64,000 bases of DNA from an uncultured Myxococcales bacterium (GTDB taxonomy: Bacteria > Myxococcota_A > UBA9042 > DTJE01), in the NCBI GenBank assembly GCA_903936705.1, contig CAIZWN010000044.1, positions 62,001-126,000 of the forward strand. Reading direction: 5' to 3'. The translations under genes were made by a program, and so were the position numbers. This document shows positions 8,156 through 34,343 of this stretch, in pieces (the stretch's first letter is position 1; each line of letters opens with the position of its first letter). Under the pieces are notes generated by a model. It did no database searches. It had not been told where the DNA came from and saw nothing but the letters and a program-made list of their open reading frames with translations.

Positions 8156-8186
8156 TTGACTTCGGGAATCGAGGCTCAATTATACG
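8156..8186 (+). promoter_or_regulatory. Promoter for ahpC, overlapping a divergent TATAAT facing glnS
   Basis: TTGACT at 8156 (five of six) is followed by the segment CAATTATACGG, giving a -10 (TTATAC or TATACG) at an 18-19 base spacing. It points to the peroxiredoxin gene, whose ATG is about 65 bases further on. The same A/T-rich segment reads as a perfect TATAAT on the minus strand (8179-8184), facing glnS. The two divergent promoters would share one core. No operator was recognised. Confidence 0.55.
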
Positions 8187-8252
8187 GACCTCAGCCATCA
8201 GAGATGTCTCGCTGTGAGGCATTTGTGAAGATTTTCTTAAGGAGGTTTTCAA

Positions 8253-8843: not shown

Positions 8844-8927
8844 CGATTCCCGATTGTTGAAACGAAAGCCTCGCCACGCACCATCGATTGGGGCTAGTAT
8901 CTGGGCGCCGGATCGAAGAGGGGACAG

Positions 8928-9902
8928 ATGGATAAGACCGTGAATGCCTTGCTGGACGGATCAATCGACTACGCCGGCGTTTTTCCCCCTGCTTCGTTGG
9001 AACTTTCAAGAGCCGTATCCGAATATTCCCGCTGCCGGGAGGGGGGCGACGCCTGGATGCTGGGACGCTTCGTGGTTTCATGCAGTCGCCTTCCCGAAGC
9101 AAGGACCTTGGCGCAGGACCTGCCGGCCAAGGATGGTCGGCCTTGGCGTTTTGCGGCTCTTGTGGGCGGGGGCGAGTCGGAGGGCGATGTCCTTGGGCGT
9201 TTGCACTCCGAGGGTGACATTTTGGCTGCGATACGTGGACGCGGGGGTTCGGCCCGGCCTTTCGTTGTCGAGGCCCTGGAGATGCGCGTTCCCGGCGACG
9301 TGCTGTCGTCGTGCAAGCCCGAGCGCGTTCGTTCGTTCGTGGTGCGCGCACTTGAGACGTTGGAGGACGCAGTCCCGTCCACGATCGAGATGTTCATCGA
9401 AGGTTCTACTGGTGAAAGCGAGACAGCCATGGACCGCGCGATCGTCGAAGGTCTTGCCGGAGTCGGTGGATCGGCGAAGATCGGAGTCAAGCTGCGTTGT
9501 GGCGGGCAGGACAGCACTTCATTTCCGCCGGTCATTCGCGTGGCAAACCTTCTGACGCACTGCAAGGCAATGGGAGTGCCTTTGAAACTTACTGGCGGGC
9601 TGCATTCGCCGGTTCGAGGCACCTTGGCCGATCAGACACACCATGGCTTCGTGAATATCATGGGAGCATCAGTCCTGCTGCAGGCCGGTGTGATTGATGG
9701 GGCTGATGTGGCCGCCTGCATCGGCGAAACCGAGCCTTCGGCATTCTCGTTTTCCGATGGCGTCTTCGCGTGGCGAGCCAGACGGGCGCCGCTTGCAGCC
9801 GTCTTGAAGGCCAGAAAGAGTCTGGTAGTCGGTTTCGCATCCTCGCGATTCGGCGAGCCAGCCAAGGGATTACGAGCCCTCGGGTGGCTGCCACCTGCCT
9901 GA
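8928..9902 (+). CDS. Conserved protein of unknown function
   Basis: 324 residues, no signal peptide and no membrane segment, so probably cytoplasmic. The N-terminus contains IDYAGVFPPASLELSRAV followed by a GDAWMLGRFVV segment. A later stretch reads LKLTGGLHSPVRG and then HHGFVNIMGAS. I recall the same pattern from uncharacterised conserved proteins in several phyla, but I know no assigned activity. The Gly/His-rich TGGLH segment could be a ligand-binding loop of an alpha/beta barrel; that is inference only. A GAGGGG ribosome binding site precedes the ATG. It sits between ahpC and the RND pair, followed by a hairpin. Confidence 0.75.
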   Translation: MDKTVNALLDGSIDYAGVFPPASLELSRAVSEYSRCREGGDAWMLGRFVVSCSRLPEARTLAQDLPAKDGRPWRFAALVGGGESEGDVLGRLHSEGDILAAIRGRGGSARPFVVEALEMRVPGDVLSSCKPERVRSFVVRALETLEDAVPSTIEMFIEGSTGESETAMDRAIVEGLAGVGGSAKIGVKLRCGGQDSTSFPPVIRVANLLTHCKAMGVPLKLTGGLHSPVRGTLADQTHHGFVNIMGASVLLQAGVIDGADVAACIGETEPSAFSFSDGVFAWRARRAPLAAVLKARKSLVVGFASSRFGEPAKGLRALGWLPPA

Positions 9903-9914
9903 CCGGAATACTGG

Positions 9915-9947
9915 CAAGGTGTTTTCACGCCAAAGGTGGAAACCTTG
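9915..9947 (+). terminator. Hairpin after the unknown gene, possible terminator
   Basis: CAAGGT at 9915 pairs with ACCTTG ending at 9947. The inner bases TTT/AAA and CAC/GTG also pair, with small bulges, around the loop GCCAAAG, for about 12 base pairs in all. It begins 13 bases after the stop codon at 9902. There is no following T tract, so Rho-independent function is uncertain. Confidence 0.35.
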
Positions 9948-10010
9948 TCAAACGGGCTTTCGGTCGGCTAGCAATCGTCTATGATTCGCTCGAGTGCAAG
10001 GGGGGCCGAG

Positions 10011-11126
10011 ATGCCACTAATCGGACGGACTGGCGGACTGGTCCTGGTGATGCTGTGCGCCTTTGCGTGCAAAGGGCGCCCGGAGGTCCATAAGCCTCCT
10101 CTGCCCGTAAGGATTCAGCCTGTCCAGACCGGCAGCCCCGAATTGACCCAGCGCTTCTCGGCCAACATCGAGCCTGGCATCCGGGTGGACCTTGCATGGA
10201 AGGTTGGCGGGTACATCGACGAGATCCTGGTGGTCAAGGACGACGCCGGCCGCTCGCGCCTGCTGCATGACGGCGACATGGTCCACAAGGGCCAGGTGCT
10301 GGCAAGAGTCCGGGATGCCGACTACCAGGTACGCCTGGCACAGGCCAGGGGTGGCTTGGCGCAGGCCGAGGCCGCGATGAGTGCGGCCCGTCAGGATCAT
10401 GTACGCGCCACGACATTGCGGGCCGAACAGGCAATTCCCCAGGCCATCATGGACGGAGCCAAGGCAAAGCTGGACGGCACGCAGGGCGCGGTGGATCTGG
10501 CTGCTGCGTACGTAAGGCAGGCGCAACTGGCGGTCGACGACACGGCTTTGCATGCTCCGATCAACGGGGTAGTGCTGAAGCGTCTGATCGAGGTTGGATC
10601 ACTTGTCGGGCCAGGCTCCGGCGGTTTCGTCCTGGCTGACAACGTATTCGTGAAGGCGGTGCTTGGCGTCCCGGACAGTGCCTTGTCAAGGTTCCCGATC
10701 GGCGCCAAGGTTCCAATACGTGTGGATGCCATTGACGCATCTGCCGAAGGCCTCGTGACGCGAGTCTCACCGTTTGCGGATCCACGCAGCCGGGTATTCG
10801 ACGTCGAAGTCTCGATTCCCAACCCGACCGGCGTTTTGAAGCCAGGCATGGTTGCCAGCGCTACGACCCGCAAAGCCTCGGAACAAGCGGTTATGCAGGT
10901 TCCGTTGGCCTGCGTCCGCCGCCCGCCTGGCGCTGCCGCGGGCTATGCCGTTTTCGTCGTCGATGACAGTGGCGGCACCCCCGTTGCCAGGGTGCGCCCG
11001 GTCGTGATCGGCGAGGTGCGTGGCGGCTCGATCGAGATTCTTGATGGCGTTCGCGAGGGCGAACGCGTAGTCGTGTCAGGATCCGCACTTGCCGTTGACG
11101 GCGGTGCGGTGGCAATAATCCCGTAG
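10011..11126 (+). CDS. RND efflux periplasmic adaptor (membrane fusion protein), probable lipoprotein
   Basis: 371 residues of the HlyD/AcrA-type adaptor family, bridging an RND pump to an outer-membrane channel. The N-terminal signal runs to CAFAC, a weak lipobox, suggesting anchoring to the inner membrane through Cys. A split lipoyl domain (WKVGGYIDEILV with VHKGQVLARV, and later LHAPINGVVLKRLIEVGSLV) flanks an alpha-helical hairpin rich in Ala and Gln. Beta-barrel and membrane-proximal domains follow. The ATG at 10011 has AAGGGGGG upstream and is preferred to the ATG at 9981, which lacks a good site. The permease gene follows after 15 bases. No TolC-like gene is linked. Confidence 0.92.
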   Translation: MPLIGRTGGLVLVMLCAFACKGRPEVHKPPLPVRIQPVQTGSPELTQRFSANIEPGIRVDLAWKVGGYIDEILVVKDDAGRSRLLHDGDMVHKGQVLARVRDADYQVRLAQARGGLAQAEAAMSAARQDHVRATTLRAEQAIPQAIMDGAKAKLDGTQGAVDLAAAYVRQAQLAVDDTALHAPINGVVLKRLIEVGSLVGPGSGGFVLADNVFVKAVLGVPDSALSRFPIGAKVPIRVDAIDASAEGLVTRVSPFADPRSRVFDVEVSIPNPTGVLKPGMVASATTRKASEQAVMQVPLACVRRPPGAAAGYAVFVVDDSGGTPVARVRPVVIGEVRGGSIEILDGVREGERVVVSGSALAVDGGAVAIIP

Positions 11127-11141
11127 ATCCCGGGGGCGTCG

Positions 11142-14100
11142 ATGGCGCACGAGTCCGACGAGTCCCTTATCCGGCGCACCCGGAACACAGCGCGCTTCTT
11201 CACCGAGAACCGGCACGTCGCCTGGGTTGTGCTTGTGGCAACGCTGCTGTGGGGCGTCTACGGATACATGAAGATGCCCAAGCGGAAGGACCCGGTAATC
11301 CCAATCCGGGTCGGAGCAGTCGTGTGCGCCTGGCCGGGCCGCAGCGCCACTGATATCGAGCAGTCCGTTACACGCCCGATAGAGCAGAAGATTTCCGAGA
11401 ATGGCAACGTTGAAAAGTTGTTCACAACCATTCGAAACAGTGTCAGCGTCACCCTCATCATCCTGCAGCCGTCCATTCTTGATATTGGCAAGGAACTGGA
11501 TGATATCAAAGGTAAACTAGATCAATTGCACGGTCTGCCAGAGGGCGCGGGGCCAATCCAGTTCCTGAAGGACTTTCGTGACACGTCCGCCTTGATGTTG
11601 ACTGTTGCCAGCCCGGTGGTTGACGAAGTCGAACTGTCGATCCGCACGGATGCACTGAAGACCGCCATTTCCGATCTGCGTGCAGGAACCAGCGGTCCGC
11701 GTGCGTCGCTGGTAGTTTCCTTCCCGCATGACCTGGATCCGGCGACGATGATGCGCGTGCTGCGCGGCTTTCCGGATTTCCTGGCTTCGGATCCGCGTGG
11801 GATCTTGTCCCGCATGGCCGAGCGACCAGGCTTCGTAGTGATCGACGCTGGCTTTTCGGGTACGGATGGCGAGTTCCTTGATCTTTACGAACGGTACGTC
11901 CGGGAGCATCTTGACCCGTCTGACATCCACCCTGACTTGTGGCAGCCGGCAGTGGTTGTGAATCCGGCCGATGCCGGCGCCAGGTTGATGAAGGTTGCAG
12001 GGGCCAAGTACACCTACCGTCAACTGGACGACTGGACCGACCTGATTGCGCGCACTTTGCAAACGGTTCCGACGGTGTCCAAGGCCACGCGCCTGGGCGT
12101 CCTGCCGGAGGCCGTATTCCTGACCTATTCGCAAGACCGCCTGGCTGCCTACGGGCTGCAGCCAGCCATGCTGCAGGAGGTCTTCAAGGCCCGCAACCTT
12201 GCGGTGCCAGGCGGATTGCGCGAGGCGGGGGGGCGCACGATAGCGCTTGAACCATCCGGTGAATTCAAGGACGAAGGCGACCTGCGCGACGTGATTATCG
12301 GGGCGTCGGATCGTGGCCTTCCAGTCCAGGTGCGTGACGTATTCGAGGTGAGTCGCGAATATCAGACTCCACCTCGCTATTTGAACTTCTTCTCGTTTCG
12401 CGACTCCGAAGACAACTGGCAGCGCACTCGCGCAGTTACCCTGTCGGTTTTGATGCATCCCGGTCGACAGATCGGCGATTTCGGCACCGAGGTTGATCAG
12501 GCGCTTGTAGAGTTGCGACCGCAGTTACCCGACGATCTGGTGATGTCTCGAACGTCGGACCAGCCGCTGCAGGTGCGCGAGATTGTCGCGCTGTTCATGC
12601 GCAGCCTTCTTGAGGCCGTGCTGTTGATTGTGGCCGTCGCCTTCCTCGGCTTCCGCGAGTGGCGCTCGGCCGTACTGATGGCCCTTTCGATCCCGCTGAC
12701 GTTGGCGATGACGTTCGGGATGATGCTGCTGCTGGGACTGGACTTGCAGCAGGTATCGATAGCATCCCTGATAATCGCGCTGGGACTGCTGGTCGACGAC
12801 CCGGTGGTGGCAGGAGATGCCATCAAGCGAGCCCTCGCGGCCGGCCACAAGCCGGTTATTGCGGCATGGCTGGGGCCGACACGCCTGGCGAACGCGATTC
12901 TGTTCGCCACCGCGACGAACATTGCTGCATACCTTCCGTTGCTGCTGATGGGGGACGACACCGGGCGGTTCATCTACAGCCTGCCAGTCGTCATGACGTG
13001 CTCGCTGGTGGCGTCGCGAATCGTGTCCATGACCTTCGTGCCACTGCTGGGTTACCACCTCCTGCGGGGCAATCCCGACGAGCGGGATGTTCGCAAGACG
13101 CGTTTTGCCGGAGCCTACTATCGCCTGGTCGGCTGGGCCATCGACCACCGCTGGCGAGTGCTTGCCGTGTCGATAGTTGCGCTGATCGGCACCGGGCTGG
13201 TGGCGGGTCGGTTGAAGTCCTCGTTCTTCCCGAAGGACCTTCAGTACATGTTCTACGTGGACGTCTGGCTGCCGGAGGATGCACCATTGTCGGCCACCCG
13301 CGAGGCTGCCGCCGCGGTTGATTCAGTGGTCCGGGAAGTTGCCGACGAGTACGGTCGTTCACATCCGGGGCCGGATGGGAAACCGCGCGAGGTCCTTGAA
13401 TCAAGCGTCAGTTTTGTTGGCGGAGGAGGCCCCAGGTTCTGGGTCACTCTGGTTCCCGAACAACAGCAGGTCAACTACGCCCAGGTGGTTGTCCAGGTGA
13501 AGGACAAGCACGACACGGCGGCACTTGTGAATCCGATTCAGAAGGCGCTGTCATCGCGTCTGCCTGGCGTGATGTCCGATGTCCGGGAACTGGAGACTGC
13601 ATTTCCGGTTGGCGTGCCTGTTGCTTTTCGCTTCCAGGGCGAGGACATCGCTACGCTGCGCCGCGTGGCCGAGAAGGCGAAGGCCATTCTGCGGTCTGCT
13701 CCTGACTCGGACCGCGTGCGTGACGACTGGGGCGCCGAGATGCTGGCCATCAAGATGCAGATTGACCCGGCGCGCGCGAATCTGGCCGGCCTTACGAATC
13801 TGGACGTGGCATTGTCGTCCATCGCGGGTTCCAGCGGGCTGCCATTGACCAGCCTGCGCGACGGTGACCGCCAGGTTCCCGTGTACGCCAGGCTTCGTGC
13901 CGAGGAGCGCGTTGGCGTGGAGGACCTTCAGAATCTGTACGTCACCGGGTTGCGCACAACCCAGAAGGTTCCCCTGACACAGGTAGCTTCGATGACCACG
14001 GTCATGGAACCCGAGAAGCTGAGGCGGCGGAATCACTTCCGCACAATCACGGTAGCTGCGTACCCGGTGGCCGGGGTCCTGCCGTCACAGCTACTGAACG

Positions 14101-21735: not shown

Positions 21736-23598
21736 TCACGACGCCAGCCTTCTGGCCAGGCGGATCAATCCGGTCTTGAACACGATCCAATCGCAACACA
21801 GCCAGAACACTCCACCGGGAAGGCCGGCAGTACGAACGGCCCAGGCCCCTTTCCATGGACAAGCAAAGCCCTTGATCCACGCGATCGGATGCCGCCATGC
21901 GGCCACATGCTGCCGCCCCCACAGCCGGACGCTGTAGTCGGAATGGGACTCCTCGCAAGTTAGCCTTTCGGCCAGAACCATCGCGTCCTTCCCGGGAAAA
22001 TGTGAAAGCCGGAACAGCCGACTGTCCGACATGCGCTTCAATCTGTCCTGGAACACAAGATTGTTCGCCGGGCTGTGCCTGACGGCTCCGGCAATCAGTC
22101 GCAGCGAAAGAAGGATCCCCTGCCGAACAGCAAGAAGCTCCTCGGGATCGTCTTGTTCTGGTGAAGGTTCCTTGCAGATTGATTCCAGCAGGCCATACAG
22201 GTCCCAGGCCGATTTTTCCGCCAGCGATTCCCTTGATTCCTGGTCGGCGACAAGTCCAACATCGCCCAGGCGCAGGTTTTCCTTGCCTCGCTCGGACCAC
22301 CTTGCAAAGAAGGCCCAGCGCGTCCGGATCGCCGGAACGGCGGCATCGAACATCCTCCCGATGCTTCCCCGCCAGCCGATGTCAACGAACATGAAATCGG
22401 GACCCAGCGCCAGAAGCTCGGCAGCAAGGGACTCACGGGTTTCGCCGGCTATTTTGGCGAGGACAGGGAAGCGAACACCAGCAACCTCGGATTCGAACTC
22501 CAACAGCGAATAGTCATCTGGCGAACAGCCTGGAAACAGATTGGAAAACTCGACTCCCAGCCACGCTGCCGCCTGAACTGGACCCATTGCAGCGGCCTTG
22601 ACCTCCCTTGCGTCGCCCAGGGCCGAAACGGCATCCGCTGGGGTCATGATGCTTGCAAGTCGAGCTCGGCAGCGAGGAATCAGTGAGTAACCAAAGGTGT
22701 CATCCCGGTCGAACACCTCCCGCGACCATGCCTCGGCGCACATCTTCAGAAACCAGCCGTCCCTTGCAACGAAAACAAACCTACCGCTTGGCTGGTCCGA
22801 TGGAAGCAACGCAAACAACTTCAGACAGAACAGCGCAAACACCGGGCCCAGTTCCGAAAAACCCAATCGAAATGCGCGGCTGCATCGATCCTGACCAGGT
22901 TCAGTTTCGGCCGCTGGAACCACCCTCGCGCTGATTCCTTCGGCTGCCGCTGAAAATCCATCCGCCAACCGATCGTCCCCGATGTGCAGCAACTGGCATC
23001 CCGCGAAATCCTTGGACAGACGATGCAATCCGCCCCTGAACTTCCCGCGAGCATGATCACAGGACGAATGGATCGAGGAAGCCGGAAAACGATCGATGCC
23101 TGATTTCCCCAGGAGGGCAGCCAGATCACCGGCACCGAACCGGGAATCCGAACATAAGGACACTTTCTTCCCGGCGGCCAACGCCTGTTCAACGATGGTC
23201 ATGGCCGCCGTATTCGAAGATGTGGTGGCGGCCAAAGCCTCCAGTTCAACGGCGTGAATGGCGTTGGCGAATTCAGGCGCCAGCCCGACCAGCGAACAAT
23301 ATCGTTCCCATATTGCAAGCGATGAACACTCCGGATCGCCGTCAACGGCCCGCCTGGAGTCGGCAACGGCCGCGTCGAAAGCACTCCCTGGCTGAACAAG
23401 TGATCCCAGGATGCCAGCGATCGCCCGCTGTTCCCAGTCGGGATCAAGTCGCGCAAGAACGGTGCCGAAGCAGTCGAACGAAATGTGACCAAATCCTGTG
23501 GTATCAACAGACTTCCAATCGGATTTCGAGGCCCGACCCGAGAGCGCCCCCCCGACCAATCTGGCTGCGGTTTGCAACTTGTGCAGAAAGGAATCCAC
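21736..23598 (-). CDS. Large HAD-superfamily protein of glycan clusters (COG5610-like)
   Basis: 620 residues. The N-terminal HAD domain has the nucleophile motif SFDCFGTVL, a Ser in LCSDSRFG, a lysine region ARGKFRGG, and the acidic motif HIGDDRLAD. All the catalytic positions of an active HAD hydrolase are therefore present. The C-terminal ~370 residues contain FVFVARDGWFLK and resemble the long HAD proteins common in LPS and capsule clusters; their role is not established. It is the last gene of the minus-strand run that begins near 34343, 51 bases after the TPP enzyme, and is convergent with the GT2 gene. Confidence 0.75.
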   Translation of the reverse strand: MDSFLHKLQTAARLVGGALSGRASKSDWKSVDTTGFGHISFDCFGTVLARLDPDWEQRAIAGILGSLVQPGSAFDAAVADSRRAVDGDPECSSLAIWERYCSLVGLAPEFANAIHAVELEALAATTSSNTAAMTIVEQALAAGKKVSLCSDSRFGAGDLAALLGKSGIDRFPASSIHSSCDHARGKFRGGLHRLSKDFAGCQLLHIGDDRLADGFSAAAEGISARVVPAAETEPGQDRCSRAFRLGFSELGPVFALFCLKLFALLPSDQPSGRFVFVARDGWFLKMCAEAWSREVFDRDDTFGYSLIPRCRARLASIMTPADAVSALGDAREVKAAAMGPVQAAAWLGVEFSNLFPGCSPDDYSLLEFESEVAGVRFPVLAKIAGETRESLAAELLALGPDFMFVDIGWRGSIGRMFDAAVPAIRTRWAFFARWSERGKENLRLGDVGLVADQESRESLAEKSAWDLYGLLESICKEPSPEQDDPEELLAVRQGILLSLRLIAGAVRHSPANNLVFQDRLKRMSDSRLFRLSHFPGKDAMVLAERLTCEESHSDYSVRLWGRQHVAAWRHPIAWIKGFACPWKGAWAVRTAGLPGGVFWLCCDWIVFKTGLIRLARRLAS

Positions 23599-23649
23599 TT
23601 TTTGATAGCCTCATGCCAGCCTGGACAATCGGTCGCCCCAATACGGTAA

Positions 23650-25452
23650 TCAGGGTCGCGATACGGTGTTCAGCGCCATTTCTGCGGAATCCAGGAATGG
23701 CCACATGTCATCAAGCGCTCTCGATACCATCCGGCCGTCCGGAAGGCGTTCCGATGCCACCTTGGGCGCAAACTGGCAATCGGGGTCCACCCGCACCACA
23801 CAGAACGTCGGACCAGGCAGTTCAAGGACATCGCGAACGGTACACTCGACCTGTTCAGGACTTTCAATCACGAAGGATTGCAGCCCGAATGCCTCGGCCA
23901 GCCTGGCAAAGTCGGGAAAGCCGACGCCCGATTCGCATCCGCACCCGACATACGGCAACCCGAAATGATTCTTCTGCGACTGTCTGATCGAGGCATAACC
24001 GCCGTTGTCCAACAGGAAGATCTTGACCGGAAGGCGATGTTCGGCCAGCGTCGCCAGTTCCTGAACATTCATCATCAGGCTGCCGTCACCCGCAAGGCAG
24101 ACTACCCGCTGTCCGGTGCCAATCGCAGCTCCAATCGAGGCCGGAAGATCGTAGCCCATCGATGCGCATCCGCTGTTGCAGATCATTCGCGCCCCGCCAC
24201 GAACAACTCCGGCCTGGAACAGAGCGATGCTGGCGGTGCCGTTTGCCGACACCAGCGTGTCGCCGGTATCCATCAAGCTGGTCAGGTGCTGGACAAACCG
24301 GTATGGGTCTATCCGATTCGATCTGACCGGATGATCCCCAAGAACCGGATATCGCACCAGTCGCTCCTGGCACCATGCCAGCCACGCATTCCATTGCTCG
24401 CGCATCGGCGGGGAGCCTGCTGGAAGAAGCCGACTGAATGCCCCAAGGAAGAAGCCTGCATCGGCATGGATCGCGATGTCGGGCCGCAACGTTGGCTTGT
24501 CCAGTTCGGCCCTGTCGATATCCACGACGACCTTCCTGGCGTTGGGCGCGAACATTGCCCATGAATATCCAATCTGCCTGATGTTGTTGCGGGTGCCGAC
24601 GAACAGGATCAGGTCGGCCGACTGCAGTGCAAAGTTTCCAGCACGGGTGCCGATCGTGCCTATACGACCTATCCAGCGAGGCTCGTCCGACGGCACCAGA
24701 TCAAATCCGTTGAACGTGGTAACCACCGGAATATCAAGTGACGCCACGAGTTTCAGGAACTGCTGCCCAGCGCCAGCAAGCCGGATCCCGTGACCTGCTA
24801 CCAGTAGGGGCCGTCGCGAAACCTCAAGGGCTCGGACAGCCGATTCGACACCACGCAGTGCCTCGGCCTGATCGAACACAGGATCGGTCGCCGGGTCGAT
24901 CAACGTCGATGCCGGTGGCAACAAGACAGGAGCCCCTTGAACGTTCATCGGAACGTCCAGCCATACCGGCCCGGGGCGCCCCGAGGTCGCGGCTGCCAAG
25001 GCCTTGTCGACAAGCCCCAGCGCATCGGCCGGGTCCAGGATTGTCGCCGCAAACTTCGTAAGGGGCCGAACCAGGGACAGGATATCAACCTCCTGATCGC
25101 CCAGTTGCCGCAATGGGACCTGGCGACAGGAGGCGACGGTGGTCTCGTACTTGACCTGTCCGGAAATGTAGACGACAGGTACCGAATCGGTCCACTGCCC
25201 AAGAAGACCAGTCAAGGTGTTCGTGCCACCCGGTCCGGTTGTCACGTTTACGGCTACCGGACGTCCGGTAGACCTGACGTAGCCTTCGGCAGCCATCGCA
25301 CACGCCTGTTCGTGGTGGAAGAAGAAACACCGAAGGCCGTGGTGCTTGCCGAACGCATCGTTCAAGTGCATTGCGCCGCCGCCGGTGATCATGAACACGT
25401 GCCTGATTCCCAGTTCAAACAAGCGATCGGCTATGACGTCGGCAACGCGCAT
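23650..25452 (-). CDS. Thiamine diphosphate-dependent enzyme, acetolactate-synthase-like
   Basis: 600 residues in the three-domain TPP fold. The N-terminal domain has the catalytic glutamate in HHEQACAMAAEGY and a TTGPGGTNTLTG motif. The middle domain has LLVAGHGIRLAG. The C-terminal cofactor domain has GDGSLMMNVQEL and a following Asp-Asn-Gly-Gly, matching GDG-X~26-N. Homologues in polysaccharide clusters are generic TPP enzymes; one characterised example, YerE, adds a two-carbon unit from pyruvate to a CDP-keto-deoxy sugar formed by an RfbH-type enzyme. With RfbH at 16973 this role is possible but unproven. It lies 36 bases after the NeuB-like gene and 51 before the HAD gene. Confidence 0.85.
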   Translation of the reverse strand: MRVADVIADRLFELGIRHVFMITGGGAMHLNDAFGKHHGLRCFFFHHEQACAMAAEGYVRSTGRPVAVNVTTGPGGTNTLTGLLGQWTDSVPVVYISGQVKYETTVASCRQVPLRQLGDQEVDILSLVRPLTKFAATILDPADALGLVDKALAAATSGRPGPVWLDVPMNVQGAPVLLPPASTLIDPATDPVFDQAEALRGVESAVRALEVSRRPLLVAGHGIRLAGAGQQFLKLVASLDIPVVTTFNGFDLVPSDEPRWIGRIGTIGTRAGNFALQSADLILFVGTRNNIRQIGYSWAMFAPNARKVVVDIDRAELDKPTLRPDIAIHADAGFFLGAFSRLLPAGSPPMREQWNAWLAWCQERLVRYPVLGDHPVRSNRIDPYRFVQHLTSLMDTGDTLVSANGTASIALFQAGVVRGGARMICNSGCASMGYDLPASIGAAIGTGQRVVCLAGDGSLMMNVQELATLAEHRLPVKIFLLDNGGYASIRQSQKNHFGLPYVGCGCESGVGFPDFARLAEAFGLQSFVIESPEQVECTVRDVLELPGPTFCVVRVDPDCQFAPKVASERLPDGRMVSRALDDMWPFLDSAEMALNTVSRP

Positions 25453-25487
25453 CGTGGCAAATCTCCGCAGGAAGCACTTTCAGCGCG

Positions 25488-26567
25488 TCAAAGCCCACGA
25501 CCGTAAATCCGGGCCTTCAGCGATTCCACCTTTGCATACGGAACGTCGAGGATATCGATCATGATGGGTTCGTCCTGCTTGACAGGCGTCAGCAGCACCT
25601 CGCCCCGCAGCAATTCCCGACAGGAAATCTGCCCCCGCTGCAACGGTATCGCCAGGTACACGTCGTCGTCACTGAGAGCATGTCCTGCAGGCAAGTCGCG
25701 TTTGGCATAGACACCTCGGACCAGGCGGTCCAGGTAATCGGTCTCGAGTGGCGAAATCGACCGCCTTTGATCGGGCGAACCTCCGCACATCTCGCGAACC
25801 TTCTGCCATGCCTTGAACCACTCATCGATCTGGTGAGGCTGCGAGCAGTATGGCGAAACCGGGTGCTGCCCGTCATCGATATCGATGTGACGCTCGAACG
25901 TCCTGGCGCCCTTGGCGTAGGCGATCAATATCGACGACGTCCAGTCGTTGTGCTCGTGTGTCGACAAACCGATCACGAGATCCGGGTATCGTTCCTTCAG
26001 AAAGTCGATCTGGGAAAGTTCCAATTGCCAGTCCTCGGTCGGGTACATCGCAACACAGTGATTGATGGCCAAGGGGATGTTCCGGTTTCCGAAGAACTTG
26101 ACCAGGTCGTCAATGTCCTTCAGGGAGGATCCCCCTGTCGACACAATCACTGGCTTGCGCGTCTTTGCAATCTTTTCGATCAGTATCCAGTCGTTGATAT
26201 CCGACGACGCAACCTTGATGATTTCGATCCCAAGATTGACGCACAGATCGACCGAGCGCTCGTCGAAAGGCGTGGCCATAGGGATGCATCCGGCCTGACG
26301 GATACCGTTCACCAGAAGAACGAAATCCTCGTCTGACATCCGTGTCGCAACAGTCTTCTGGATGTACCGAATGTCGGTACGGTCACGAAAATCCTTGTGG
26401 ATGAAGCTCTGGACGTCCCTGAACTGCAACTTGATGGCAGCCCTGACATTGTTGAAACGGACGATGGTCGCGAACTCGTTAACGATTCGCAGACCGCGCT
26501 GGACCATGCCCCAGTGGTTGTTCGCCAGTTCCAGAACGAACAGGTCATCGAATATCTTGGCCTTCAT
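25488..26567 (-). CDS. NeuB-like nonulosonate (sialic acid type) synthase
   Basis: About 359 residues. The barrel starts with LELANNHWG and contains CIPMATPFDE, KVASSDIND, KPVIVSTGG, GLSTHEHND and FERHIDID, the active-site landmarks of PEP-condensing NeuB enzymes. A C-terminal SAF (antifreeze-like) domain follows (YAKRDLPAGHALSDDDV). It would condense PEP with an N-acyl hexosamine to form a nine-carbon acid; the exact substrate is open. The ATG at 26567 has GGGGG seven bases upstream. A GTG at 26693 overlapping the GT-C stop is in frame but adds 42 non-conserved residues. No NeuA or NeuC gene is present in the window. A sialidase is encoded 11 kb away. Confidence 0.88.
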   Translation of the reverse strand: MKAKIFDDLFVLELANNHWGMVQRGLRIVNEFATIVRFNNVRAAIKLQFRDVQSFIHKDFRDRTDIRYIQKTVATRMSDEDFVLLVNGIRQAGCIPMATPFDERSVDLCVNLGIEIIKVASSDINDWILIEKIAKTRKPVIVSTGGSSLKDIDDLVKFFGNRNIPLAINHCVAMYPTEDWQLELSQIDFLKERYPDLVIGLSTHEHNDWTSSILIAYAKGARTFERHIDIDDGQHPVSPYCSQPHQIDEWFKAWQKVREMCGGSPDQRRSISPLETDYLDRLVRGVYAKRDLPAGHALSDDDVYLAIPLQRGQISCRELLRGEVLLTPVKQDEPIMIDILDVPYAKVESLKARIYGRGL

Positions 26568-26689
26568 CGCCATACCCCCAGAAGCTCGGGAACACGCGGC
26601 ATTATTGCAGGGACATGCCGCGGGCTCAACATCGGACTCGACTCGGCCATGTCGGTGAACAAAAGATTTCCTGCTGAATGATTGGGGTG

Positions 26690-28309
26690 TCACCCGGAAG
26701 CGCTGCCGTTCAGAACGAACCTGGTCGCACGCAGCTCGTAGCCCTGATGCTGGTAGACCCGCTGTTCGACCTCAAGGTACCGCGTCCGAAGAATCTGCAA
26801 TTCCAACTGGTTATCAGGGTGATTCGGAAGTTCCAGATACCAGAGTTCGGAAGGCGCCTTGGAATCGGCAATCAGCGCCATGACGCGAAGATAGGTTGGA
26901 TTGACCACGTCGGAAGTGCACGCGGTCCTGCGATAGGTGCCGCGCTCCAATGGTCCCAGGGAAAACCAGTTGGCGTCGCGGTGCGTCACTATCGTGGTAC
27001 CAGTGTCGGGCCGAACATCCTGTAGGAAAGAATCCTGAAGGCGACCCAACTGCATGAATTCCAGGTTATAGACAAGCTGGTCGCGCCCGTAGCCGGCGTA
27101 TTCCTCGGTCACAGAGGTCATGTCCAGCAACTGGTGACGACCGAACGAAAAGGTTCCGAAGATCGCCCTTGATACCGGATCGGCAGTGACGAAGACCGAC
27201 GCCAGAAGCAATGTTGACAGAATCGCAAGGAATCCGCGCCTGACACCTGGAAGCCGAGGCAGCAGTTCGCGCAACGATGCACTGGCCAAAAGAAGCAACA
27301 ATGGGAACAGCGGCAGAAAGTAGCGCACGTTCACGAACGTGCGAAAGCGGGTCAGCACGAACAAAGCCCCCAGGAACACGAACGCGATGAAGGCCACGTC
27401 AAGACGCAGCGCAGGGTCGGTCCCGGGTCGAGCATCCGAAGCAGCCGATGTCGCGGCCGGTTTCCATGGACGACAGAAAACGACCCACGCAACCGGCAAG
27501 ATCGACAGCATCCACTGGAACTGCAGCACGAAGACCAGCAGCAGGTTGGCCAGCAACAGACGATCCAGATCCAGCCTCAGCAGCGATCCGACAAGGCCCA
27601 CCGCGTCCTGATTCGACCACAACAGCGCATGACTTGGGGTGGAGGCACGCATCGCCAGATAGCCACCAAAAACCAGTAACGGAATTCCCAGCGGCAGCAG
27701 TCGCGCAAGCCGAGCCAGGCGTTCCGCAGGTGTGCCCGGCGACAACAGAAGGGAAACAAGCGCGTGGCCCGAAACGGACAGACCGAAGAGCACGACACCT
27801 GACTCCTTGGAAAGCACCAATCCGGCACCTGCCAGCGCCGCCAGAAAATAGCGGCGCCGAAGAAGGGCCAGAAGAAAGGGGACAAAGAAGACAAGAACGC
27901 CAAAATCGGCGTTCAAATTCGCCATGCAGGCGTGGAAAGCCGGGTTGACGGCCATGGGAAGAACCAGCAACCACGACTCGGCAATGCCTGCCGTCGGAAA
28001 CAGATGCCGCACTACGCGAAAATAGGCCAGCAGGACAAGGCCTCCCAGCAGGAGGTTTGCAAGGCCCAGCATCATCAGATTGCATGAATCGGCCAGCAGC
28101 GACAGGCCCAGCGGGATGAAGTAGGCCATCGAAGGATGGCCGAAAAGGTTGAACGCCATCGGATTGAATGGGCCTGACAGGGCCTGCTGCAGATGGACAA
28201 GATACTGGCGCCCGTCCCACATCGGGACCTCGCCAATGTAGAACGAGGCAATCACCACATAAACAAGGAACACTACGGCGGGTGCCACAAACCGTGCCGC
28301 CGACTTCAT
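26690..28309 (-). CDS. Polytopic membrane protein, probable GT-C glycosyltransferase
   Basis: 539 residues with about ten or eleven hydrophobic helices followed by a ~100-residue C-terminal soluble region. After the first helix comes an acidic loop motif MWDGRQY, and a second in NLNADFGVLVFF, the loop acidic residues expected in GT-C enzymes that use a polyprenyl-phosphate sugar on the periplasmic face. The helix arrangement resembles GT39/GT83-type enzymes, but the family cannot be fixed by eye. It starts three bases after the nitrogenase-like gene, so the two appear cotranscribed. The GtrB-like enzyme could supply its donor; that link is inference. Confidence 0.7.
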   Translation of the reverse strand: MKSAARFVAPAVVFLVYVVIASFYIGEVPMWDGRQYLVHLQQALSGPFNPMAFNLFGHPSMAYFIPLGLSLLADSCNLMMLGLANLLLGGLVLLAYFRVVRHLFPTAGIAESWLLVLPMAVNPAFHACMANLNADFGVLVFFVPFLLALLRRRYFLAALAGAGLVLSKESGVVLFGLSVSGHALVSLLLSPGTPAERLARLARLLPLGIPLLVFGGYLAMRASTPSHALLWSNQDAVGLVGSLLRLDLDRLLLANLLLVFVLQFQWMLSILPVAWVVFCRPWKPAATSAASDARPGTDPALRLDVAFIAFVFLGALFVLTRFRTFVNVRYFLPLFPLLLLLASASLRELLPRLPGVRRGFLAILSTLLLASVFVTADPVSRAIFGTFSFGRHQLLDMTSVTEEYAGYGRDQLVYNLEFMQLGRLQDSFLQDVRPDTGTTIVTHRDANWFSLGPLERGTYRRTACTSDVVNPTYLRVMALIADSKAPSELWYLELPNHPDNQLELQILRTRYLEVEQRVYQHQGYELRATRFVLNGSASG

Positions 28310-28312
28310 GCG

Positions 28313-29569
28313 CTATGTCCCCATCGCCTCGAGAATTCGCGTCGCCGTCGCAAGGACGCCTTCAAAGCCGATGAATGGAGACGGTGACAACGGCTGCCAG
28401 CCACGGCAGGGCATCCCGAACTCGACCCCTGTTACGCCGCATCTGCGGGCACACTGGACTTCGTTAGTGGTACCGATCACCAGGTCGATCGCACGGTCGG
28501 ACACCGCCTGACGCAACCTGGATTCGACCGCGTTCAGTCCGGGCGCATCCAGTACTTCGACACCTTCCGCGGCGGCGCCAACCGCAGCAGTGCGGCCGTC
28601 CAGCGCACCGGCGAGTACAGGCACCATTCGCAAATCACGACACAGGCCCAGCAGGCCCCCAAGGCGAGGACCGTCCGAAAAAACAGCCACGGGTCGTCCG
28701 ACCAGTGGTTCTGCGGCCTGGCGCAGGACACTGCGCACCCTGGCCTCCTCGCGGTCTGCAAGGCCAACGGCTCCATCCATGCACCCGAATGCATCCCCAA
28801 GACGCACCAGAAACTCCCTTGTTGCCGCGATCCCGATCGGCCACGGAACGTCAATCCTGACATGTCCCAGACGTCTCACCAGCACGTCGGACGCAGCTTC
28901 GCCACCCGGCAGGGTAACGGCTGCACCGGCGCGAGGCAGGTCGGCCAGGCGCCCCGACATCCCGCCTCCCAGCAGAGCCGTGTTCAACACAAGGCCAAGT
29001 TCAGCCATGTACGACGTCAGCAGATCAATGTTTGCAACATGTTCGTAGAACGGACGATCAAACAGGTAGCCGACCAGATTTACGCGTTTGTCCATGCCAG
29101 AAATCGCCGGCGTACCAGGCAAGGCAAACCGCTCTGCCAAAGCAGCCAGTGCTCGTCCATAGCCCTCAAAAAGATCCCCTGAAAAGTCTGGGGCGTAGAC
29201 GTAGACAGACGGAATGCCAAGGAGTTTCTCGAGATCCTGGCCAAGCCGATCGCGATCAATGCCGGCAATCTCGACAAACGATGCCGATGTGACGACAAGC
29301 ATCCGGGCCTTGACCCGCCGGACTATGTCCTGCGCCAACCTAGCCAGGACCTGTCCAGGGTCCAGCACCAGGTCGGCTTCGGTGATCTTGGTACACACGA
29401 CTCGCCGATGAACCTCTCCCGATGGATTATGGAACCTCATCAGTGAGTGCAGTTTGATGTCGCAACCTGCGCCTCCGTGCAGTATCACCACGGCATCAGG
29501 GATCGCCAGGCCGGCGATGCAGGCGCCAATGCTGGCGGTAGCCTGGTACGTCTTCGGCTCGAACGTCAC
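28313..29569 (-). CDS. Nitrogenase component 1-like protein (stand-alone subunit)
   Basis: 418 residues of the NifD/NifK/BchN/CfbD superfamily. Visible landmarks are GACIAGLAIPDAVVILHGGAGC, CTKITEADLVLD, which matches the CT-x-x-x-E-x-D-I-V motif, and a C-terminal FGMPCRGWQPLSP with SPFIGFEG. Cysteines at 17 and 36 fit the first two cluster-ligand positions. Where the third is expected the sequence is VVTSASFVE, with no Cys, while Cys59 lies in the CTKIT motif. It overlaps the fusion gene upstream by four bases (ATGA), strongly suggesting the two products form a heteromer. It is not NifD or NifK proper: it is shorter and the gene sits among glycan genes. No NifH-like reductase gene is linked. 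Function unknown. Confidence 0.8.
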   Translation of the reverse strand: MTFEPKTYQATASIGACIAGLAIPDAVVILHGGAGCDIKLHSLMRFHNPSGEVHRRVVCTKITEADLVLDPGQVLARLAQDIVRRVKARMLVVTSASFVEIAGIDRDRLGQDLEKLLGIPSVYVYAPDFSGDLFEGYGRALAALAERFALPGTPAISGMDKRVNLVGYLFDRPFYEHVANIDLLTSYMAELGLVLNTALLGGGMSGRLADLPRAGAAVTLPGGEAASDVLVRRLGHVRIDVPWPIGIAATREFLVRLGDAFGCMDGAVGLADREEARVRSVLRQAAEPLVGRPVAVFSDGPRLGGLLGLCRDLRMVPVLAGALDGRTAAVGAAAEGVEVLDAPGLNAVESRLRQAVSDRAIDLVIGTTNEVQCARRCGVTGVEFGMPCRGWQPLSPSPFIGFEGVLATATRILEAMGT

Positions 29570-32259
29570 GCCATCACCCCTTCAAGCGCCATGAGGGTTC
29601 GTTCGATTCCGGAAAACCCCGGTTCGAACCGCATGAAATGAAAGTAGGTCACGCCAGCGGCGTCAATGAAATGTTTCTGGCACGACTCGTTTGTTGCAAG
29701 GTCGAAATTCCCTGAGCGCAGTATCGATTCAAGCCCCTCCGGCCTGCGGTGCAGGTACACCTCCGGGCTGGCGCCCAGGAAGGTCGCCAATGCACGAACT
29801 CGGTTGAGCTGCTGTGTTGATTCCTCGGTTAGCGCCACAAGAACCGGTTTCAGCCCCAGTTCCAGAAGGAAAGGAACATACCCGACGCCCAGATGAACCG
29901 TCGTCATCGAGCCAGTCCCCTTACGGTTATTGCCGAAGGACACAGCTACGCGACGCCCCTGGTGACGCGCCTTGAACGCCGAAATCCGCTCGTTCAGCCG
30001 CCGTAACCTGGGCTCCAGCAACAGTGCCATTTCTGTCTCTCGTCCCATCCTTCGCCCGATTTCCAGGAAGAAGGAATGGACCGATCCGACAGCAAATGGC
30101 GTTGCCTGGTCAACAACCTCAGCCGAGGTCAGCGAACCTACAGCCTCAAGAAACGAGCTGAAGACGACCCTCTCGGGAGCCATTACCAATCGGGACGAGG
30201 CAATGCTGGACAAGGCTTCAAGGCCACCGGAGGGCCAGAAAGCGCCAACCGATATCCCGGCTTCGGACAGAATTGCCTGGACTTCCTGCTCGAAACGCCC
30301 CGCGTCGTCAGGATACCCGACGAACGATACCTGGTTCGCCGGCTGACCCGCCGACCGCAGAAAACGGGAAGCCAACGCCCCATGAACACGGCGAGCAACC
30401 TCTATGGGTCGCAATGGACGCAATCCATTGGCCTGTATCGCGACTACAGGAACGCCAAGATCCTGTTCCAGTTCAGTGGCAACCTGTTCAAGATCGTCGC
30501 CAATCATCTCGGACAGGCAGGTTCCAACAATGACAAGCGCGCGCGAGGACGGGCGAATGTCAATCGCCCCACGTGCCGCTTCGTGCAACCGGCGCTCGCC
30601 CCCGTCAATCACGTCCATCTCTCGCATATCGCTCGAGAATATGTTTCCTGACGACTGCTCAAATGCAGGAAGACAACCGCGGTCCCCATGCACCAGAATC
30701 GCAAATTCGGCCGGCAACTCCTGAAGAACATCCAGCGCACCCATCATCCCGCAAGCGGTGTCCCCGAAAGCATCCTCCAGTGGCATGTCATCCGGTAGCG
30801 CAGCCGAATCGTCAACAGCAGGTAACGCGATGGCAGGCGATGGCGCCGACTGAGGGGTAGGCTGTGCAGACAGTCGATCCCAGGCGGCCTCAATTTCCTC
30901 GAACTTCGTGTTCATTCGGGTGCGAGCAAGCCTGGCGATGACCTTCAGAGCAGGCGCCTCGACAGTCCCGGCGCCGTGCGACAGGTTCAGGTGTACCGTT
31001 CGAAGATAGGATGGGCGCGAGTCGTCACGAGGCGATATCTCGAGGATAGTCGTGCGGCCCCCGGAATCAAGCATCGTCAGCGACAATTTTCCGGCAGCGC
31101 TGCCGGCGGAAATCCCATGGATTCCAGCGCGCGCCAGCATCTCCAGCGGCGAATCAAGAAGCCATGCCAGAAGGCTGGTGGCAACAGTTTCCGGCGGGAG
31201 ACTGGCTGACACTGACGCCGGTTTCGGCGCGCTGTCCATTGGCAGTGACTTTACAGGCAGGAATTCATCCCAGCCGAAACGCTCGATGTATGTAACCTGC
31301 ACGCCGCTGCACACGGGTTCCAGCTTGCATTCCCGGCACGCAGGGCGCTTTGCGTAGTAGGGATCTGGCGACCCGACGACATTCGTCTGGCCTCGATCCC
31401 TGACAAACCTGTGATCCGGCACATCCACCGACGGAACCGGGCCACCGTCAGCCGAACGGGACAGCACCACGCAACCTGGAACCTCGCACAGCCGCAACGA
31501 AACCGGGGCGCCAAGGGAACGCCACGCGTGCAGCCAGGCATCCATCAGATCGCCGTATCCAAGTTCAAGATCGTCGCGGGTGGCCAAGGCACTGCCCAGC
31601 GGCTTCATTGCGGAACAGCAAATCCCGTCGCCAAGCTTCGGGGACGCATGCGCCAGGAAGAACTGGTAGATCTCGGCAATACGGGCCACGTTCCGGCGAG
31701 TCATGACAACCAGGAATTCCAGCCGAAAGCCACTGGCGGGACGGATCCGCGCCAGCTTCTTCAGGCCCTCTACAACCTCGTCAAAGGCACCAGGGCGCTG
31801 GACAATTGCGTCGTGATCTTCTGCACGATCTCCATGAATCGACAGCACTATCCTGCCCATTCCGGCATTCAGCAGGTCTTCAAGCAGACTGCCACGGTGC
31901 AGCAAACGACCGTTCGTGTTCATCGATACAAGTTCGAATCCCATGTCGCGAGCCATCCGGACCGCTGCAACAAGATGGCGGCCCATCGTCGGCTCGGCGA
32001 TGGTGAACGCAGCCTCCCGCAACCCCAGACCATAGCCTTCCTCGAGGTTCGCCCGGATCTCGTCGAGAGTCGGGGGATGAACCGGAACTCCTGGAATGCG
32101 TCCGTCAATGCGCCCGTTCAGGCAGAACACGCAGGAATTGTTGCAGGCATCGCTGACAGCCAAGTGCAGTGCTCGACGCTTTGACTGGGGCACGGACTGC
32201 CCGGACTCGGCCCGGCCTGCCGGGGATGGATTCGAAGCGGCCACCTGTTCAACCTCCAC
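29566..32259 (-). CDS. Fusion of a radical SAM enzyme with a nitrogenase component 1-like domain
   Basis: 897 residues. Residues ~28-250 form a radical SAM domain with C39-N-N-S-C43-V-F-C46 (CX3CX2C). A SPASM-like cysteine group CRECKLEPVC follows near residue 310. Residues ~340-480 are a linker region I cannot assign. From ~495 to the end is a nitrogenase component 1-like domain with Cys503, Cys529 in HGDRGC, and Cys581 in VGTCLSEMIGDDL. The first two are separated by 25 residues, as are NifD Cys62 and Cys88, and the third motif matches the TC-x-x-E-x-IGDD pattern. This is the more canonical cluster-binding partner of the downstream subunit. I know no named enzyme with this architecture; the reaction is unknown. 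Confidence 0.85.
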   Translation of the reverse strand: MEVEQVAASNPSPAGRAESGQSVPQSKRRALHLAVSDACNNSCVFCLNGRIDGRIPGVPVHPPTLDEIRANLEEGYGLGLREAAFTIAEPTMGRHLVAAVRMARDMGFELVSMNTNGRLLHRGSLLEDLLNAGMGRIVLSIHGDRAEDHDAIVQRPGAFDEVVEGLKKLARIRPASGFRLEFLVVMTRRNVARIAEIYQFFLAHASPKLGDGICCSAMKPLGSALATRDDLELGYGDLMDAWLHAWRSLGAPVSLRLCEVPGCVVLSRSADGGPVPSVDVPDHRFVRDRGQTNVVGSPDPYYAKRPACRECKLEPVCSGVQVTYIERFGWDEFLPVKSLPMDSAPKPASVSASLPPETVATSLLAWLLDSPLEMLARAGIHGISAGSAAGKLSLTMLDSGGRTTILEISPRDDSRPSYLRTVHLNLSHGAGTVEAPALKVIARLARTRMNTKFEEIEAAWDRLSAQPTPQSAPSPAIALPAVDDSAALPDDMPLEDAFGDTACGMMGALDVLQELPAEFAILVHGDRGCLPAFEQSSGNIFSSDMREMDVIDGGERRLHEAARGAIDIRPSSRALVIVGTCLSEMIGDDLEQVATELEQDLGVPVVAIQANGLRPLRPIEVARRVHGALASRFLRSAGQPANQVSFVGYPDDAGRFEQEVQAILSEAGISVGAFWPSGGLEALSSIASSRLVMAPERVVFSSFLEAVGSLTSAEVVDQATPFAVGSVHSFFLEIGRRMGRETEMALLLEPRLRRLNERISAFKARHQGRRVAVSFGNNRKGTGSMTTVHLGVGYVPFLLELGLKPVLVALTEESTQQLNRVRALATFLGASPEVYLHRRPEGLESILRSGNFDLATNESCQKHFIDAAGVTYFHFMRFEPGFSGIERTLMALEGVMA

Positions 32260-32282: not shown

Positions 32283-34343
32283 CTACAGCGGCCTGAAGTC
32301 ACGTGTTTCAAGGTGCTGCCTGAGTATCGCTTCCATGGCGGCGATATCGTATCGCAGTACGTTCGGCAGGTCAGCAGCCCGCTGACGCACGTCCCTCTGG
32401 AAAGTCGTAACCGCGTTTTGCAGGGAAGCCTCGTCGGTAAAGACGCTCTCGTCACCGTCATTGCGTTCCACAGCCAGGAATCTGAAAGCCGCTCCCAGGC
32501 CGCTGGCCAGATCGACGAAATCGGCAGCCTCGTGGATGTTCGAACGCATCACGACGAACGACAGAACAATGCGCGGTCGGTGCCGCCACCCCCTGGAGCG
32601 TTCCAGCAACAGACGAACATTCGATAGCACCTTTTCGAATCCGCCGGCATTGCCGGTTATTCGCTCGAAGGTCTCGCTGGTAGTGGCATTGATCGAGACT
32701 ATCAACGTATGGAAACGGGCACGAGACATGTCAGACAGGATCGAATCGCCCAGAAGGATGCCGTTCGTCGTCATCGACAACTGCAGGTCCGGGAAACGAT
32801 CGCTGTCGCACTCACGCACCAGTTCGGCAAAACGTGATGACATCAACGGCTCGGCGCCAGCCAGCGACAGATCGCGCAACGTGGGCAGAAGGTCCTTCAC
32901 CGAATCGAACACCACGTCAGGAATCTCTTCCAGGGAACGGTAGTTGCGATGAATCTCGCACATCGTGCAATGGTGGTTGCACCTCAAAGACGGAGCAATC
33001 ACCAAACAGGTTGGGCGTGATCGAAGGAAGTCGGCCCGTTCCAGGGTTTCCTGCATCTGTAGAATCAGGTTGTCGTGGAAAGCTCGACCGATCGGCAAGG
33101 CGCTGGGAACTGCCGAGGAATGGGCCCCACCGCGAAACACCGGGCAGATGTCACGACATACATCATCACCCTTGCCGGCAGCAATGGACCGACGGATCTG
33201 GCGAAGGCCATCCGAGTTCCAAACATCCAGCAGTGGCTGACGCAGCCAGTTTCCAGTCGAGAAACGGACTTCTTCCGTCAGCAGGCTTCCCTTGCAAGGA
33301 GCCACGCCGCCCGACGGATCCTGCGCGCCAAGGACACTCCATGGGCTGGTACAGAAAAGGGCAGGTGCGCGACCAAGCCGCTCGACCATGTCGTCCAGCG
33401 TCAGGCGCCTGATATGAAACTCCACGGCACTTGGCCCAGGAATTGAACCGGCAGGTCCGTCCGGCGTCAACGAAGGGATTTTGGTGATAGGCAGCACCGA
33501 ACCCAGCTTGGAATCAGGAGCGAAATGGGGCAGGGCGGGAGGACAAGCGCCCGCGAGGATGCACTGATTACAAACTGGGAAGGGTCCTGGCTTGGTTTGA
33601 TGATGCAACGGGGCCAGGATCGCTGGATACAGATCGGGGGCCACAACCTCGGTCGATAACAGGCATGGCGGGGGTGACGGCGGCGTAAGTCGCAGGGGCA
33701 CATGCGCCTCCAGAGCCCACGCCTGGATGGCACTGATCCTGGCGGCTGCCAGCCTGAAATCCCATGGCAGCGGTCTGGTCCTGTCAGCCTCGCCACAGAA
33801 CGCCAAGTGAATTCCTGCCAACCTGCCAGCCCTAGCCAGCACCCTCGTGGCAGTATCCAACAACCCTGGCAGTGTCGAAGGCACCACCGGAATGTCGATC
33901 TCCAGATCCAGTCCGCGCAGTTTGACGAGATCAATCAGGCGGGCCAAGCGAGTCAGGGTACCGGTGCCCCTGGTCAACCTGGCTATCGATTCCTTGTCGG
34001 CGGCTGGGACGCAGAGTCTAATCCCGGTCATGCCGGCATCTGCCAGAATATCGAAAGCATCAGTGTCAGTGAATCCGGCATGACCGTAGACCAGAACCTC
34101 TCCGGAAGACTCGTGGCGCAACCGGCGGATCAGCGGCGCCAGATCAGCCCGTAGAACGTCTCCGGCCATGATCAGAACACGTCTGGCCTGCGGGATTCGG
34201 AAGTCGGGCGACAGCACGGATGGCACAGGAAGACCCGTCCGCCCTTGCTCATGTCGGCAGAACACGCAAGACTGCGAGCACCCGGCGGCCAGCCGCAAAA
34301 CGGCTTCATCGCTGGGAATCGGAAAGCCGACAGAATCCGGCAA
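32283..34343 (-). CDS. Tandem radical SAM protein with internal SPASM-type region
   Basis: 686 residues. Module 1 has C22-S-Q-S-C26-V-F-C29 (CX3CX2C) and a divergent barrel, then an auxiliary cysteine group CNQCILAGAC near 260. A SPASM-like stretch follows (CTSPWSVL, then GGVAPC, GNWLRQPLLDVWNS and CRDIC). Module 2 has C455-N-H-H-C459-T-M-C462 and a more standard barrel to the end. SPASM normally follows its radical SAM domain; here it precedes module 2, so it may serve module 1. The start is TTG at 34343 with GGGGGGA just upstream; the CX3CX2C near residue 22 leaves no room for a later start. It is first in the operon, 23 bases before the radical SAM-nitrogenase fusion gene. Confidence 0.85.
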   Translation of the reverse strand: MPDSVGFPIPSDEAVLRLAAGCSQSCVFCRHEQGRTGLPVPSVLSPDFRIPQARRVLIMAGDVLRADLAPLIRRLRHESSGEVLVYGHAGFTDTDAFDILADAGMTGIRLCVPAADKESIARLTRGTGTLTRLARLIDLVKLRGLDLEIDIPVVPSTLPGLLDTATRVLARAGRLAGIHLAFCGEADRTRPLPWDFRLAAARISAIQAWALEAHVPLRLTPPSPPPCLLSTEVVAPDLYPAILAPLHHQTKPGPFPVCNQCILAGACPPALPHFAPDSKLGSVLPITKIPSLTPDGPAGSIPGPSAVEFHIRRLTLDDMVERLGRAPALFCTSPWSVLGAQDPSGGVAPCKGSLLTEEVRFSTGNWLRQPLLDVWNSDGLRQIRRSIAAGKGDDVCRDICPVFRGGAHSSAVPSALPIGRAFHDNLILQMQETLERADFLRSRPTCLVIAPSLRCNHHCTMCEIHRNYRSLEEIPDVVFDSVKDLLPTLRDLSLAGAEPLMSSRFAELVRECDSDRFPDLQLSMTTNGILLGDSILSDMSRARFHTLIVSINATTSETFERITGNAGGFEKVLSNVRLLLERSRGWRHRPRIVLSFVVMRSNIHEAADFVDLASGLGAAFRFLAVERNDGDESVFTDEASLQNAVTTFQRDVRQRAADLPNVLRYDIAAMEAILRQHLETRDFRPL

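Follow-up and report, generated by a model that had tools for sequence, protein, structure and literature searches.

What cluster, and what reaction, should be expected of a nitrogenase-like enzyme in which one of the two catalytic chains is fused to a radical S-adenosylmethionine (radical SAM) domain? The question is raised by a pair of overlapping genes in a 64,000-nucleotide stretch of DNA from an uncultured Myxococcales bacterium (assembly GCA_903936705.1, contig CAIZWN010000044.1, positions 62,001 to 126,000), hereafter the window, whose own numbering is used throughout. Known relatives of nitrogenase perform a handful of hard reductions, those of N2, tetrapyrroles and C-S bonds. The pair and its intervening domain, designated X, are located as follows.

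29566 to 32259, reverse strand: fused protein of 897 amino acids, with a radical SAM domain, domain X and a nitrogenase component-1 domain of alpha type (open reading frame, Pfam, orthologue at locus L012)
28313 to 29569, reverse strand: short component-1 chain of beta type, 418 amino acids, GTG start (open reading frame, Pfam, orthologue at L012)
30862 to 31224, reverse strand: domain X, about 120 amino acids (residues 346-466 of the fused protein), common to other alpha chains and to partner radical SAM proteins

Our best prediction from these sequences is that the two chains hold a single [4Fe-4S] cluster at their interface, with an expected set of four ligands (Cys503, Cys529 and Cys581 of the alpha chain and Cys36 of the beta chain) divided three to one as in dark-operative protochlorophyllide reductase (DPOR) and chlorophyllide a reductase (COR), and that they carry neither a P-cluster nor a five-cysteine site.

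The GTG start of the 418-residue gene and the stop of the fused gene overlap by four bases. The match of PF04055 to residues 35-200 of the fused protein (E = 7.3e-18, 65.7 bits) places that part in the radical SAM superfamily, and PF00148 matches both residues 503-870 of the same protein (E = 1e-30, 107 bits) and the short chain (E = 1e-50, 173 bits), against a cut-off of 28.6 bits; as judged by these profiles, both chains are of the nitrogenase component-1 fold. Weak support for this fold comes from Foldseek searches with AlphaFold monomer models (pLDDT, the predicted local distance difference test, 48.9 and 47.0; alignments of two sequences per chain), which returned only nitrogenase-type component-1 chains among the best 50 matches listed for each. 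The catalytic features of the radical SAM part are:

32122 to 32145, reverse strand: radical SAM motif CNNSCVFC (Cys39, Cys43, Cys46), kept in L012
31309 to 31473, reverse strand: four more cysteines, Cys263, Cys308, Cys311 and Cys317, all four kept in L012

The latter four likely bind one auxiliary [4Fe-4S] cluster. Locus L012 belongs to Deltaproteobacteria bacterium K_DeepCast_100m_m1_326 (VGRB01000004.1), where the fused orthologue lies at 7335-10004 (54 % identity) and that of the short chain at 10001-11263 (59 %); a third short-chain orthologue, at L047, is 49 % identical. Three of 52 genomes of the class hold the fused pair (the window genome G000, G204 and G170), the alpha frame of G170 running off the contig start so that its radical SAM fusion is not proven, and a search of 377 genomes of the phylum found more distant relatives of the short chain in 38 (E <= 1e-8). 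The open-licence literature yielded no paper on a radical SAM domain fused to an alpha-type nitrogenase-like chain, nor on domain X.

The expected ligands, and the cysteines that might be mistaken for them, are encoded at the following positions.

30751 to 30753, reverse strand: Cys503 (DTACGMM), first alpha ligand position, invariant in a 16-chain alignment of the three-cysteine class
30673 to 30675, reverse strand: Cys529 (DRGCLPA), predicted second alpha ligand, by conservation among alpha chains
30517 to 30519, reverse strand: Cys581 (VGTCLSE), predicted third alpha ligand, by conservation among alpha chains
29462 to 29464, reverse strand: short-chain Cys36 (GAGCDIKL), predicted single beta ligand, by conservation and profile alignment to MarK Cys56
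29519 to 29521, reverse strand: short-chain Cys17 (IGACIAGL), not a ligand position, aligned with MarK Met37 and poorly kept
29279 to 29281, reverse strand: short-chain Ser97 (TSAS), third beta ligand position, without cysteine at its column in 55 beta chains
29680 to 29682, reverse strand: Cys860, an extra alpha cysteine present in 3 of 54 alpha chains, that is, in three orthologues only

An earlier, sequence-only reading had named Cys503, Cys529 and Cys581 (in VGTC) on the fused domain and Cys17, Cys36 and TSAS on the short chain, all of which are indeed found there, and had proposed from them unequal cluster-ligand sets in the two chains. Conservation was counted over chains in the fetched loci (part of the places of relatives and part of the family's domain matches) that scored at least 100 bits against our own profiles, giving 57 alpha and 60 beta chains; truncated chains are included, those below 100 bits (such as the alpha chain of L092) were dropped, and near-identical chains from related genomes were kept, so that the counts are not independent events. 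Where alpha chains have letters at the column, Cys529 is present in all 53 and Cys581 in all 54. For Cys503 the count is 18 of 52 when a shift of one column is allowed; 17 of these match exactly and L077 is off by one. The triad matches that of the solved chain 9spz_A in profile alignment, and the spacing of 26 between Cys503 and Cys529 equals that between Cys62 and Cys88 of NifD, as these are numbered in a passage of PMC11423573.

On the beta side, Cys36 is kept within one column in all 54 chains with letters. Profile alignment to MarK (9d9u_C) sets SIGA on SIGA and brings Cys32, Cys56 and Cys121, numbered as in a portion of PMC12552129, onto Ala12, Cys36 and Ser97, respectively. No cysteine lies within two residues of position 12 in any of 54 chains. 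A third cysteine restored in homologues of the short chain, the observation that the sequence-only reading had named as its own refutation, is absent at column 97 from all 55 beta chains, one of which (G113, locus L060) has a cysteine one residue before it. Cys17 sits five residues beyond the first beta ligand position; because MarK Cys32 aligns to Ala12 instead, and because the Cys17 position is isoleucine in L047 and a cysteine in only 2 of 54 chains, Cys17 is, on this alignment, not a ligand position. (The low-confidence model places it within a helix, residues 8-21, which was not relied on.) The proposed asymmetry is thus real and conserved, but the set is three against one, since the third beta position is never cysteine and Cys17, so rarely kept, had been counted without support. 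In the same way the single interface [4Fe-4S] cluster of the sequence-only reading survives as the best prediction with four ligands and not about five, and its preference for this over a P-cluster is supported by the missing cysteines (Ala12, and Ser97 at a third position without cysteine). Two other cysteines are confined to orthologues: Cys59 of the short chain (3 of 55 beta chains), and Cys860, which is possibly near the substrate cavity.

At the sequence level, the three-plus-one set (three cysteines on the alpha-type chain, one ligand on the beta-type chain) occurs here at the positions homologous to those of DPOR (BchNB) and COR (BchYZ), and the pair further resembles them in having no cysteine for the iron-molybdenum cofactor (FeMoco) and, putatively, a separate NifH-like reductase. 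In COR, the beta ligand is a cysteine of BchZ. The alignment to BchB (3aet_B) begins at residue 7 in each chain and, if gap-free, sets Cys36 on BchB residue 36, which we take to be the aspartate ligand of DPOR. A passage of PMC11423573 describes the DPOR cluster as held by three BchN cysteines and one BchB aspartate, whereas the beta ligand here would be a cysteine. The pair also differs from both systems in the radical SAM domain and domain X fused to its alpha chain and in its scores against the Bch families TIGR01278, TIGR01279 and TIGR02015, which do not exceed 37.3 bits where the cut-offs are about 420 or higher. Because the set is three plus one and the family scores lie far below cut-offs, the pair is DPOR/COR-like by its predicted ligands, yet a member of no named family tested. 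The isethionate reductase IsrBHDK of Rhodobacter capsulatus offers another likeness, in that a nitrogenase-like HDK system is associated with a radical SAM enzyme and four interface cysteines are predicted; its ligands, according to a passage of PMC11423573, are one cysteine on IsrD and three on IsrK, the mirror image of the three on alpha and one on beta found here, and its radical SAM enzyme is a separate gene. Methylthio-alkane reductase, MarHDK, shares the nitrogenase-like fold and served as the solved match for position mapping, but has all six cysteines of a P-cluster and, in addition, a large Fe-S cofactor, as described in part of PMC12552129; the present pair lacks two of the beta cysteines as well as the cofactor cysteine. 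The region of that last cysteine (MarD Cys270, NifD Cys275) aligns to VMAPERV. Neither this cysteine nor, in the genome, NifB, as would be expected beside a P-cluster enzyme such as NifDK, VnfDK, AnfDK or MarDK, was found.

We consider it probable, at good but incomplete confidence, that the alpha-beta pair is an ATP-dependent nitrogenase-like reductase whose interface [4Fe-4S] cluster is fed by a NifH-like protein and whose action is coupled with that of the fused radical SAM domain on one substrate. The two chains would form the catalytic component; a NifH-like protein encoded elsewhere, on contig C68, would deliver electrons to the interface cluster, which in turn would reduce an organic substrate held within the chain cavity. 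The fused radical SAM domain, with domain X between, would most likely act on the same substrate, a radical step and a low-potential reduction being thereby coupled on one protein. What the sequences themselves show is the fold of both chains, conserved ligand residues, the absence of the FeMoco cysteine and of the remaining P-cluster cysteines, a NifH-like gene with intact motifs that co-occurs with the pair, and domain X common to alpha chains and radical SAM partners; the cluster type, electron path and common substrate we infer. The window genome has two NifH-like genes, on contigs C6 and C68. The C68 protein (L015) retains an intact P-loop (GKGGIGKS) and cluster cysteine motifs (GVGCAGRG and GDVVCGGF), and its close orthologues (70 and 66 %) are found only in G204 and G170, other genomes of the class reaching at most 50 %; these are the same three of 52 genomes that hold the fused pair. 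In G170, the NifH-like orthologue lies on the contig of the pair, 4.6 kb away on the opposite strand.

Several observations weigh against this proposal. No NifH-like gene lies beside the pair in the window genome, and the proposed NifH adjoins a different alpha gene in both G000 and G204 (truncated in G204): in the former, it leads its own alpha-beta pair, and in the latter a frame with domain X follows at the contig end. Because of this placement, it may serve that other pair first. The same three genomes also hold this other pair type (in G170, a beta chain of the type), so that co-occurrence does not single out one partner, and three genomes are few and may share genes by descent. Both AlphaFold models are of low confidence, which leaves the proposal without structural support, and it does not explain why the genes run on into NeuB-like, thiamine pyrophosphate (TPP)-enzyme and glycosyltransferase-like neighbours.

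Among other explanations, the one that survives best, itself unlikely, is a cluster-building scaffold, in which a NifB-like radical SAM domain would hand a complex Fe-S cluster to the component-1 part. A precedent exists in the natural NifN-NifB fusion of clostridia, described in a portion of PMC5715403, where a component-1-like chain and a radical SAM enzyme likewise share one polypeptide, and NifE is the best NCBIfam match of the component-1 parts (61.1 bits, to the alpha part). That score falls far under the cut-off of 505 bits, and in the clostridial fusion the radical SAM part is NifB and the chain is the beta-type NifN, whereas here the radical SAM part matches HxsC4 and MoaA profiles, with NifB not among the matches listed (25 families), and lies outside HxsC4 itself (NF038332, 149.9 bits against a cut-off of 500). 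NifB was found in none of the 52 class genomes, the control genomes being positive, and the FeMoco ligand region lacks its cysteine. We give little credence to the idea of a rare, drifting paralogue in which the radical SAM fusion serves no coupled purpose and the two activities are independent or one of them is dead. Its restriction to 3 of 52 class genomes and the lack of an identified substrate would fit such a view, but there are no internal stop codons, and the orthologue, at 54-59 % identity, retains the catalytic motifs of each half, among them CxxxCxxC, the auxiliary four cysteines and the cluster triad. A P-cluster or double-cluster enzyme with non-cysteine ligands in place of two beta cysteines seems very improbable: the alpha triad is complete, and a passage of PMC11423573 reports that aspartate stands in for a cysteine ligand in DPOR, but the beta positions are alanine and serine, with no cysteine near position 12 (54 chains) or at 97 (55 chains), and among 52 relatives 34 have still fewer cysteines on the alpha chain. 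A five-cysteine interface cluster that includes Cys17 is scarcely credible, for although the closest orthologue (L012) retains Cys17 as well as Cys36, a [4Fe-4S] cluster needs four ligands and Cys17 is misaligned with the first ligand position.

The reductase proposed here is part of a larger finding: nitrogenase-like reductases have undergone an expansion specific to this lineage and are tied to radical SAM enzymes by an unnamed shared domain. Component-1 domains are present in 12 of the 13 genomes of the family of the window genome (30 in G204, 12 in G175, 11 in G030, 9 in G064 and 8 in G000), and NifH-like genes number 0 to 6 per genome. With up to 30 such domains against at most six NifH-like genes, several pairs must share one reductase or lack one in the assembly. 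The 34 alpha chains with fewer cysteines keep only the second and third (e.g., L013 11824-13719, L015, L063 and L064), which, with the one beta cysteine, would make three at the interface; by these alignments the family has at least two ligand classes, three plus one and, with three cysteines in all, two plus one. According to a passage of PMC11423573, three cysteines are kept in all NifD homologues except IsrD, a statement that would no longer hold given the two-cysteine alpha chains. The natural radical SAM fusion offers a direct handle, in that the reductase probably reduces the compound to which the radical SAM enzyme binds. In contig C6 of the window genome (L013:5605-18165), two component-1 pairs lie back to back around a NifH-like gene, accompanied by a tandem family III CoA-transferase of 856 amino acids and a radical SAM protein of about 1021 amino acids. 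The C68 alpha chain (L015:8516-10522) has a Gly-Asp rich, collagen-like stretch at residues 140-196, its match to PF01391 being below cut-off.

Many other alpha chains, and the partner radical SAM proteins, also carry domain X close to the N-terminus. A profile built from 27 alpha copies finds four radical SAM copies among 4714 open reading frames (1.6e-8, 9.3e-8, 4.2e-6 and 2.3e-3), and one built from nine radical SAM copies recovers those of alpha chains, starting at 4.9e-5. Pfam has no match for the copy in the window or for three others, a fifth has only a sub-cut-off immunoglobulin-domain match, and the profile found no match in the PDB. Its matches extend to 43 of 282 genomes of the phylum, the weak ones near 1e-6 being unchecked, and in the loci of other families examined the domain is mostly C-terminal on radical SAM and B12-dependent radical SAM proteins. 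Copies occur also in L013, L152 and L156. At L152:237-11990 (G177, a single-contig genome), X-bearing genes of these radical SAM and B12-dependent types adjoin a His-Xaa-Ser cassette whose HxsA4, HxsB, HxsC4 and HxsD all score above cut-offs, an arrangement that, in this one genome, suggests a peptide substrate. As a speculation that is itself unlikely, the nitrogenase-like reductases of the lineage would be tailoring enzymes of radical SAM biosynthesis, and domain X, present on radical SAM, B12-dependent radical SAM and nitrogenase-like enzymes, a portable module recognising one shared substrate, possibly a ribosomal peptide; if true, this would be the first case of a nitrogenase relative reducing a peptide. 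Of 163 fetched loci, one (L152) has His-Xaa-Ser repeats (at least four), and such repeats also occur in L172 of G170, in neither case beside a nitrogenase-like pair; a shuffled control gave one match with three or more repeats. HxsB is present in 44 of 52 class genomes, so its mere presence says little.

The immediate neighbours of the pair comprise the following.

21736 to 28309: genes 3' of the pair, in order glycosyltransferase-like, NeuB-family, TPP-enzyme and then a 620-amino-acid protein, with gaps of 3, -4, 35 and 51 bases
32283 to 34343, reverse strand: radical SAM protein of 686 amino acids with two radical SAM stretches and a SPASM domain, 23 bases upstream of the fused gene

The glycosyltransferase-like gene was named by eye and has no Pfam match, and the 620-residue gene was overlooked by our own, crude gene caller. 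Next to the orthologues at L012 and L047, none of the NeuB-like, TPP-enzyme or glycosyltransferase-like genes was found. When the fetched loci were compared all against all for shared neighbours, the clusters obtained besides the core genes had representatives that resembled antisense or alternative frames, and none was accepted. The 686-residue radical SAM protein was rejected as a specific marker of the pair, being multi-copy: the same genome carries a copy of 73 % identity on contig C35 and one of 53 % on contig C8. A 49 % relative of it in G204 lies directly upstream of a NifH-like gene.

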